From Hydrogenovibrio sp. JE_KL2 (lineage in GTDB: Bacteria; Pseudomonadota; Gammaproteobacteria; Thiomicrospirales; Thiomicrospiraceae): DNA of 64,000 nucleotides. This document shows positions 6,473 to 11,911 of the stretch, one piece after another; the first letter of the stretch is position 1, and each line of letters opens with the position of its first letter. The notes beneath the pieces are model-generated. The model had not been told where the DNA came from. It searched no databases and saw only the letters and a program-made list of their open reading frames with translations. The stretch covers positions 124,001 through 188,000 of the forward strand of contig NZ_WBJR01000001.1 of the NCBI RefSeq assembly GCF_009296185.1. The letters run 5' to 3'. Both the position numbers and the translations under genes were made by a program.

Positions 6473-6936
6473 AATGTTTTTCTTTTTTGGGGCGTAATAA
6501 AACTGTCAAGTTTACCCTGAAAGTTTAACCTACTTGTCATTTCCGTAAGCTATATTTCTTGGCATAACTCATTGGTTAAGAGTTTCGCATTTTTTCTTAC
6601 ATTTTGTGCGAGTGGATTTCAAGTGAATGTGTTGATTCACATTTTAGAAATCATTGCTTTTTTGCTACCGAATCAAGTCAATTCGGACAGGAATCTATTT
6701 AGAGCAAAGAAGTTTTATTTGAAAAATACGGAACCTAAGTTTACATTACTTCGATAAGACCTGCTTTGTGCATAAAGAAAAAGCTATATGTGCACTACAT
6801 AGCCTGTCAGAACAGGATGTAAAGCCAGGGTGCTAATTCAAGTTTTGGAGTAGGTGCAAATTTCAAGCGATATTGCTTTTGTTTGCGGATGTTCTGGATA
6901 GGCAGGCAGGTTTTAGAATTTTAAGAGGAAAGGTAG
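6473..6936. other. Long leader region before phoU, no gene supported
   Basis: About 460 bases without a convincing coding region; a 61-codon frame at 6572-6757 has no ribosome site. A weak Pho-box-like pair (GCGTAAT and CTGTCAA, 11 bases apart, 6492-6513) might drive phoU from far upstream, but the match is poor. A small dyad CCTGT-N4-ACAGG lies near 6804-6817. Confidence 0.4.
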
Positions 6937-7677
6937 ATGGACAAAAGAGAATTTACATCACACATTTCAGGCGAGTTGAATCGCAACCTAGAAGATTTGT
7001 TTAACCATATCTTAGAAATGGGTGGTTTGGTCGAGAGCCAGTTTGAAGGGGCGATGATGGCTTTGACCGAAAGCAATGTTAATCGTGCACAAGAAGTTAT
7101 TTTGTTGGACAGAGCAGTCAATAATGCAGAAATGGTGATTGATAAGCTTTGTGCAAAAGTCTTGGCAAGACAGCATCCTACAGCGTCGGACTTAAGGCTG
7201 ATTATTGCAACGATTCGCATCGCGATTGATTTGGAACGTATCGGTGATGAAATCGTTAAAATTGCCAAAATGGTGCTGACATTTGCAAATGAGCAGGTTG
7301 ATAATTGCGCAGTGTTGCCGGGCTATATGCCGTTGATTGATATATCTAACCGCTCTATCAATATGTTGCATGATGCGCTGGACGGTTTTGCGCGCGTTAC
7401 AACTGAAGCTTCTATGAGGTTGGTTCAAGAAGAAGAAAGCGTCGATAAAATCTACAAAGATGCGTACAAAGATGTTATTGAAGGATTCAAAACATCACCT
7501 GAACACGCGGCGTGCCTTGCAGAAATTCTAATTACGCTTCGTGCTGTAGAGCGTATTTCTGATCATGCACGTAACATCGGTGAAAGTATTATTTACTTGA
7601 TTAAAGGTAAAGACGTGAGAGAATTGGATAAAGCAAGCCTATTTGCCTTTATCAATTCATTTGATCACGAGGGTTAA
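6937..7677 (+). CDS. phoU: Phosphate signalling regulator PhoU
   Basis: All-helical cytosolic protein of two PhoU repeats that restrains PhoR when phosphate is plentiful. The 246-residue length is normal. The repeated metal-binding pattern appears as DLERIGDEIVKIAK (about 88-101) and VERISDHARNIGES (about 206-219). GAGGAAAGGT precedes the ATG. phoB begins six bases after its stop and phoR follows, making a phoU-phoB-phoR operon. No pstSCAB genes are nearby; the low-affinity-type PiT transporter is the convergent neighbour. Confidence 0.96.
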   Translation: MDKREFTSHISGELNRNLEDLFNHILEMGGLVESQFEGAMMALTESNVNRAQEVILLDRAVNNAEMVIDKLCAKVLARQHPTASDLRLIIATIRIAIDLERIGDEIVKIAKMVLTFANEQVDNCAVLPGYMPLIDISNRSINMLHDALDGFARVTTEASMRLVQEEESVDKIYKDAYKDVIEGFKTSPEHAACLAEILITLRAVERISDHARNIGESIIYLIKGKDVRELDKASLFAFINSFDHEG

Positions 7678-9719: not shown

Positions 9720-11291
9720 CTACGGTAGCATGATGCCGCGGATCGTAAAATAAATAAGTGCTGCAAGGAATGCAGAAGCAGGTACGGTAATCAGCCAAGC
9801 AGCAACGATTCTCAAGAATGCTGAGCGCTTAACCAATTCTTTTTGATAAACCTTATTCAGTGACTTACGTTCTTTTTTAGTAAGCTCCACAGATGCTCTA
9901 TGTTGCTTAAGCTCTGCTAGCATATGTTTCTTCTGAATCAAGCTGGCACTCGAAAATTGTTTAATAAATTGATCGACATCCGTTTGACCTAAGCTTTGAT
10001 AGTGCTCGCGAATTTTTTGGATGGTTTTTGCATGATTGCGCTTCAGGTATTCTCGTAAGAAACCAACGCCGAAAATTCCACCCACAGCAATATGTGTCGA
10101 GCTTACGGGTAAGCCCAGTTGAGAAGCAACAATGACGGTGATGGCTGCCGACATCGCAATGGAGAAGGCTCTCATTTGATCCAGGTCAGTAATTTCTTCG
10201 CCAACTGTTTTAATCAGTTTAGGGCCAAAGAGTGCTAACCCTAAGCTGATACCCAATGCGCCGATTAACATAATCCAAAGAGGGATACTGGCGGTGGATG
10301 CAACACCGTCATGGGCGATAGCGTCATTAATCGCGGCAAGTGGGCCAACTGCATTCGCGACGTCGTTAGCCCCATGGGCAAAACTCAAAAGTGCAGCGGC
10401 AAAAATAAGTGGGATGGTGAAAAGGGTGTTGACACTGGCCTTTTCATTTTTCATGGTGTGGGCCTGTTTTTTCATGACCTGTCTTAGTACCAGATAAACC
10501 AAAACCGCAATACCAAAGCCAATTAGTGCGGCGATAGAAAAGTCAGTTTTCCAGATCTTTTTGAAACCTTTTAGAATGATGTATGTCGAAAAAGCCCAAG
10601 CCATAATGGCGATAAGCAAAGGGAGCATTTTTCTAGCAGCCGCAACCATATCTTCCTGATAGGTAATACTGCGTTTTATCCAAAGTAGGAAGCCTGCGGC
10701 AATGACACCTCCAATGACAGGAGAGATGACCCAACTCGCGACGATGGACCCCATTCTATCCCAGTTAGCGATATCCCAGCCTGCGGCAGCAACGCCGGCG
10801 CCTAAAACGCCACCAACGATGGAGTGTGTGGTAGAAACCGGGGCACCAAGTGCCGTAGCAACATTGAGCCAGATAGCACCCGACAACAAAGCTGCCATCA
10901 TCAGCCAAACAAAGGTATGCCCGTCTTTGATTAATGCTGGGTCAATAATGCCGCTTTTAATCGTGTTGACGACATCGCCACCGGCAATTAATGCTCCGGC
11001 AGACTCGCAGATAGCGGCGATGATAATGGCGCCTGTTAAGGTGACGGCCTTTGAACCCACTGCAGGTCCGACGTTGTTGGCAACATCGTTAGCACCGATA
11101 TTCATGGCCATGTAGCCACCAATCATTGCACCGACGACCAGCTCAATGTTGAAGCTACCCGAACCTATGTGTAGGTTGGCGGAAAAAATCATGATGAAGA
11201 TGATAAAAAGAAGTGCTGTTCCGAGGCGAAACATTTCTCGGCGACTTTTTAATGTTGCGTCTTCGATTTCATTTATGTTTTGGAATTCCAT
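9720..11291 (-). CDS. PiT-family phosphate transporter
   Basis: Polytopic inner-membrane inorganic phosphate symporter (523 residues). It carries the duplicated family signature: GANDVANNVGPAVGS near residue 66 and GANDVANAVGPLAA near residue 307, each followed by hydrophobic helices and a second VSTTHS/VSSTHI motif. A long hydrophilic stretch (about 415-490) separates the last helices, as in many bacterial PiT proteins. A Pho box sits about 55 bases upstream, so it is probably phosphate-starvation induced and serves the role played elsewhere by Pst. It converges with phoR. Confidence 0.92.
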   Translation of the reverse strand: MEFQNINEIEDATLKSRREMFRLGTALLFIIFIMIFSANLHIGSGSFNIELVVGAMIGGYMAMNIGANDVANNVGPAVGSKAVTLTGAIIIAAICESAGALIAGGDVVNTIKSGIIDPALIKDGHTFVWLMMAALLSGAIWLNVATALGAPVSTTHSIVGGVLGAGVAAAGWDIANWDRMGSIVASWVISPVIGGVIAAGFLLWIKRSITYQEDMVAAARKMLPLLIAIMAWAFSTYIILKGFKKIWKTDFSIAALIGFGIAVLVYLVLRQVMKKQAHTMKNEKASVNTLFTIPLIFAAALLSFAHGANDVANAVGPLAAINDAIAHDGVASTASIPLWIMLIGALGISLGLALFGPKLIKTVGEEITDLDQMRAFSIAMSAAITVIVASQLGLPVSSTHIAVGGIFGVGFLREYLKRNHAKTIQKIREHYQSLGQTDVDQFIKQFSSASLIQKKHMLAELKQHRASVELTKKERKSLNKVYQKELVKRSAFLRIVAAWLITVPASAFLAALIYFTIRGIMLP

Positions 11292-11345: not shown

Positions 11346-11366
11346 TTTATGACAAAAATGTGACAA
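11346..11366 (-). promoter_or_regulatory. Pho box for the PiT gene
   Basis: On the minus strand TTGTCAC and TTGTCAT form a direct repeat with an exact 11-base period, matching the PhoB box (CTGTCAT repeats). A -10-like TTTAAT follows about four bases after the second repeat. Confidence 0.75.
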
Positions 11367-11406
11367 AAAATATTTGTTGCAGGCATTTTGTTCAGTTGCA
11401 GAAGGT

Positions 11407-11428
11407 CTGTCATCAAAATGTCATTCAA
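11407..11428 (+). promoter_or_regulatory. Pho box facing the small exported peptide gene
   Basis: CTGTCAT and ATGTCAT form a direct repeat with an 11-base period on the plus strand. A -10-like TAACAT begins at 11432. It is divergent from the PiT Pho box and points at the short gene starting at 11497. Confidence 0.65.
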
Positions 11429-11496
11429 GCTTAACATTCTGTTTGGGTTTCTAAGCCAAAATATTTGTTTTGGATTTTTATTTCGGAGAGTTAAGT

Positions 11497-11622
11497 GTGA
11501 AGCAAATTGTTATGTTTACAATTGGGGTATTAAGTTCTTTGGCTTCAACGCAAGCGATATCGCAAACAACTCAATTAACTTCTGTCGACAAGTATAAGGT
11601 TTATTGCAACCTTACGAAATAA
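11497..11622 (+). CDS. Small exported peptide, 41 codons, unknown function
   Basis: A short gene starting with GTG: GGAGAG (11485-11490) lies six bases before it. The product begins MKQIVMFTIGVLSSLASTQA, which reads as a signal peptide: a lysine, a hydrophobic core and a TQA cleavage site near residue 20. The mature part would be about 21 residues, rich in Thr, Ser and Gln, with one cysteine (VYCNLTK end). It follows a plus-strand Pho box, so it may be phosphate regulated. A hairpin lies seven bases after the stop. I do not recognise a family. It could be a truncated gene remnant; the good ribosome site and signal peptide argue for a real product. Confidence 0.55.
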   Translation: MKQIVMFTIGVLSSLASTQAISQTTQLTSVDKYKVYCNLTK

Positions 11623-11628
11623 TGGCAT

Positions 11629-11650
11629 GGCCTTATTGTGAAATAAGGCC
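11629..11650. terminator. Hairpin between small peptide gene and ferredoxin gene
   Basis: GGCCTTATT pairs perfectly with AATAAGGCC around a GTGA loop. There is no good T-run on either side, so as a terminator it is weak. It sits between two convergent genes. Confidence 0.55.
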
Positions 11651-11659
11651 GAAATCGTC

Positions 11660-11911
11660 TTAGATTAATTCTATTTCAATATCACTAATCGGAATGACGC
11701 TACAAGTAAGAATGTGGGCTTCGTCCGTTTCATAAACGGTATCTTGAATATTCTCGACTTTGCCGGATAGTAATCTTACTTCACAGGCTCCGCAGTTTCC
11801 GCCGCGGCAGCTATAAGGCATATCAAACCCTGCTTCATCTAAACACTCCAATAATGTAAATTGATCTTCAAATTCACATTCTCCCTGACCGACTACGGTG
11901 ATTTTGTGCAT
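11660..11911 (-). CDS. Plant-type [2Fe-2S] ferredoxin
   Basis: An 83-residue electron carrier with the cluster ligands C35, C40 and C43 in SCRGGNCGAC and C70 in LTC, the spacing of plant/photosystem-type ferredoxins. It is a bare ferredoxin domain without a reductase fusion. The physiological partner is unknown; no reductase or oxygenase gene is adjacent. It is followed by the hairpin at 11629-11650 and preceded by the terminator of the DsrE-like gene, so it is probably a single-gene unit. Confidence 0.9.
   Translation of the reverse strand: MHKITVVGQGECEFEDQFTLLECLDEAGFDMPYSCRGGNCGACEVRLLSGKVENIQDTVYETDEAHILTCSVIPISDIEIELI

Follow-up and report, generated by a model that had tools for sequence, protein, structure and literature searches.

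A small reading frame behind a strong Pho box is probably the 5′ stump of a lost pit-linked pstS gene

The 64-kb window, by which we mean the whole stretch of DNA analyzed here, contains a 41-codon frame between the phosphate transporter gene pit and a ferredoxin-like gene (Table 1). We propose, with a probability of about 0.7, that this frame is the 5′ stump of a pit-linked pstS and consists of the promoter, ribosome site, start codon, and signal peptide of that gene. The original prediction had instead described a new exported peptide whose mature part, carrying the Cys, would be functional. Comparison with relatives does not support this idea, as neither the mature part nor its Cys is conserved in G003, one of the two closest genomes. 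The prediction had also conceded that a longer homolog would mark the frame as a decayed fragment, and this is largely what we observed: the same slot in relatives carries a pstS of 318–323 aa behind the same type of box.

Table 1. Coordinates of the small frame and of the features around it in the window
Feature	Position	Strand	Details
Small frame	11497–11622	+	41 codons, GTG start, translation MKQIVMFTIGVLSSLASTQAISQTTQLTSVDKYKVYCNLTK
Signal-peptide segment, codons 1–22	11497–11562	+	Coding constraint; apparent likeness to PstS
Frame tail, 19 codons + stop	11563–11622	+	Not conserved in G003
Pho box facing the small frame, putative former pstS promoter	11407–11424	+	CTGTCATCAAAATGTCAT
Pho-box-like site facing pit	11351–11368 (about)	−	TTGTCACATTTTTGTCAT, 14/18
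Candidate −10, CAAAAT	11457–11462	+	32 nt past the box; weak (4/6), other 4/6 positions exist
Hairpin, stems GGCCTTATT/AATAAGGCC	11629–11650		Between the small frame and the convergent ferredoxin gene
pit, PHO4-family phosphate transporter, divergent neighbor	9720–11291	−	Pfam
2Fe-2S ferredoxin-like gene, named from its sequence	11660–11911	−	Comes after pstS in relatives
glnA–phoU gap, pstC-pstA-pstB present there in G009	6272–6936		Gene-order comparison

To place the frame in its context, pit orthologs and their upstream DNA were taken from 30 genomes; the genome studied here is G000, and its closest relatives are G011 and G003. The gene order in the window is glnA (−), phoU, phoB, phoR, pit (−), the small frame (+), the ferredoxin-like gene (−), and a DsrE-family gene (−). 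In relatives from this genus and from the sister genera covered, pstS is the gene that diverges from pit. A Pho-like box precedes its start, the same ferredoxin gene comes next in convergent orientation, and the copy in G009 matches Pfam PBP_like_2 (PF12849). The small frame thus sits in a conserved slot between pit and the ferredoxin gene, with a pit-side intergenic length of 208 nt versus 211–357 nt in the pstS-bearing relatives. A genus-wide search recovered the pit-type pstS (∼322 aa) in 9/9 other genomes of the genus, whereas G000, G011, and G003 all lacked it; no pit-type PstS was found anywhere in G000. The pit tree groups these three species in a single clade (support 100/100), and the small frame was found only in this clade, which has lost the pit-linked pstS. 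Pit was not found in G002 or G008, though both retain pstS; in G007 the two genes sit on separate contigs, each close to a contig end.

The intergenic region is a divergent pit/pstS control region. A plus-strand PhoB-type site had been predicted ahead of the frame, and this box indeed agrees with 16/18 positions of the enteric consensus CTKTCATAWAWCTGTCAY; it is the sole match in the window at or above 16/18, with 0 such matches in 20 Markov shuffles. Across the 2.44 Mb genome it is also the sole zero-mismatch match to the relaxed pattern CTKTCATNWAWNTGTCAY, which was loosened at two positions where this box itself deviates from the consensus. The start codon lies 90 nt from the box, compared to 83–112 nt for pstS in relatives, so the Pho-box promoter diverges from pit at a distance that matches pstS. 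In most relatives' pstS promoters, a −10-like hexamer begins 32 nt past the box, the same spacing as for the candidate −10 here. The strong forward box is retained in G000 and G011; in G003 it is displaced and weaker (14/18). The minus-strand box facing pit is identical in G011 and G003. We consider that the frame's location and orientation, together with its promoter, spacing, and ribosome site, point to a pstS stump.

The elements of translation and export were as originally described: a good ribosome site, GGAGAG, lies closely 5′ of the GTG start, and the N terminus combines a basic n-region with a hydrophobic core, a clear signal peptide. A single Cys follows further on, also as described, but the 21-residue mature part is only modestly rich in Thr/Ser (6/21). 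When G000 was compared with G003, changes in codons 1–24 numbered 6/2/16 at codon positions 1/2/3 (chi-square p = 0.0015), and those in codons 9–22 (IGVLSS.ASTQAIS) numbered 1/0/10. Neighboring intact genes show the same bias, with third-position divergence near 50% and low divergence at first and second positions, so the signal peptide changes in the manner of coding DNA. G000 and G011 have the same frame length and tail, and between them 3/72 sites of the signal peptide (4%) and 9/54 sites of the tail (17%) have changed (Fisher p = 0.03); about one amino-acid change was seen in ∼54 sites (p = 0.02 versus a 10% rate, the reference being the noncoding glnA–phoU gap). The data behind these statistics are few (three species and 24 codons), and the p values are borderline. 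The tail of G003 could not be aligned reliably to that of G000, and the Cys is kept in G011 and missing in G003. As to the expectation that relatives would conserve the frame, the signal is therefore kept throughout the three-species clade but the Cys is not, and coding constraint is confined to the signal-peptide half. The best reading is that the constrained part is the hydrophobic signal and not the "mature" peptide; the data fit a kept signal peptide with a drifting tail, the opposite of what a working secreted peptide would show.

We then compared the frame with PstS itself. A PstS N-terminal profile was built from 24 N termini, and 209 signal peptides served as controls. With default weighting, the three clade frames ranked 1–3, above all 209 controls (E 0.005–0.02). 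The top pairwise score against PstS was 45 for the frames, and no control exceeded 41. When counts were left unweighted, G000 and G011 no longer stood apart from the controls. The profile thus gives moderate evidence for a PstS-like signal peptide, with the caveat that signal peptides resemble one another through convergence. At the DNA level, a profile of pstS 5′ regions recovered the Pho box but no stretch of the frame itself. Given the moderate profile evidence and a DNA profile that finds the box only, we infer descent from pstS and do not regard it as proven. The tail has no reliable match to either PstS end. A fusion of the PstS N- and C-terminal ends ("VDKYK..NLTK" versus "VEKYRAIVNK") was considered for the tail and dropped, because the best match, between the G000 tail and the PstS C terminus, stood at 18/500 shuffles and was not repeated in G011 or G003.

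Searches for other identities returned little. No Pfam family, DUF1127 included, was found in the 41-codon product at E 0.001, and at this length it does not contain a periplasmic phosphate-binding domain (PBP_like_2). An Rfam scan gave a single chance match, well under its cut-off. No convincing homolog was present beyond the three-species clade among 94 genomes, and no earlier description of the feature was found in the literature searched. The hairpin predicted after the frame is there, but it has no T-run and so was not scored as an intrinsic terminator. A leader-peptide role was ruled out because the next downstream gene is convergent.

The loss of pstS is accompanied by a second loss nearby. 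In G009, pstC-pstA-pstB-phoU comes after glnA; in G000, G011, and G003, ∼565–660 nt of noncoding DNA separates glnA from phoU, and the order glnA-[pstCAB]-phoU-phoB-phoR-pit-[pstS]-fdx-dsrE is preserved around both losses. The clade has a different, unlinked pstS-pstC-pstA-pstB set (G000 contig 8, L090 5810–9647); in G000, a Pho-like box (14/18) lies ∼115 nt ahead of the pstS of this set. With pstS and pstCAB lost and another pstSCAB present, the clade appears to have swapped one Pst system for another. We also noted a Pho-like half-site, AATAAAACTGTCAA, near 6495–6510 inside the glnA–phoU gap, the scar of the pstCAB deletion. phoU (6937–7677) is 60% identical to that of G009 and phoB 78%; the higher divergence of phoU might stem from the exchange of Pst systems. 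Separately, contig 1 of G005 (L089) has a second pstS paralog, of 71% identity, away from pit.

We reasoned that a deletion removed the remainder of pstS, that it is most simply placed in the ancestor of the three-species clade, and that the same ancestral lineage would also have lost the pstCAB beside phoU; its descendants carry the unlinked pstSCAB. At low phosphate, PhoB would still fire the old pstS promoter, and a short message would be translated from the GTG into a 41-residue product that would enter the Sec path. The tail would be drifting waste with no role in transport. The signal half keeps its amino acids while third positions change, suggesting that the stump product is probably still made, and in the membrane it may either be tolerated or bring a slight benefit.

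Whether the stump is useful is where a related explanation departs from ours. It accepts descent from pstS and holds that the signal segment was retained after the loss as a low-phosphate membrane peptide, acting for example on Pit or PhoR. The third-position bias between species, the slower divergence of signal peptide than of tail between G000 and G011, and the strong box kept in both genomes are consistent with it, as are precedents among small proteins that act on PitA or PhoR (below); a retained signal peptide is also unexpected of a dead stump. The numbers behind the bias are few, however, the forward box of G003 has shifted and weakened, and the product, with no Pfam match, is likened to those precedents by function only. 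We regard this explanation as possible but doubtful, and its fuller form, a PhoB-controlled membrane micropeptide that originated as the signal peptide of a transporter whose gene was deleted, is kept by selection, and possibly acts on Pit/PhoR, as rather unlikely.

The reverse view is that all three frames are dead, pstS having been lost twice, once in G003 and once in the ancestor of G000 and G011. The G003 and G000 tails are unalignable, as two separate deletions would give, and the G000–G003 codon pattern could in that case be partly inherited from the intact gene. The loss of pstCAB and the second pstSCAB are nevertheless common to all three species, and the G000–G011 comparison still hints at constraint; a double loss therefore seems unlikely to us. 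A new, independent exported peptide with a functional mature part, unrelated to pstS, would account for the complete frame, its ribosome site and Pho box, and the coding signature in the signal peptide. Against it, the frame takes the slot of pstS solely in genomes that have lost this gene, its tail and Cys are not conserved, and the 94 genomes hold no convincing homolog elsewhere, making this origin very improbable.

The pstS stump matters for small-protein annotation, since what looks like a persuasive, unannotated "secreted peptide", preceded by a Pho box among the best in its genome, may turn out to be what is left of a transporter gene that was displaced. Were the stump still functional, it would offer a clear case from nature of a signal peptide retained and reused after cargo loss. 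MgtS, a 31-aa small protein of E. coli, acts on PitA (PMC10710835); like the frame product it is a short hydrophobic peptide under nutrient-stress control, and pit adjoins the frame here, which raises the idea that the two work alike. Unlike MgtS, which has another regulator, the frame product is shaped like a signal peptide, and the two are compared by function only. Small DUF1127 proteins, often <50 aa, bind PhoR (PMC12501420) and are likewise short and tied to phosphate control, whereas the frame has neither DUF1127 nor any other Pfam domain. By analogy, these precedents make a membrane job for the signal possible, neither being tied to the frame. Compared with PstS, the frame is without the entire ∼300-residue binding domain and starts with GTG where PstS starts with ATG, but it shares with PstS the slot, the orientation, the divergent Pho boxes, the start spacing, the following ferredoxin gene, and an apparent resemblance in the signal peptide.
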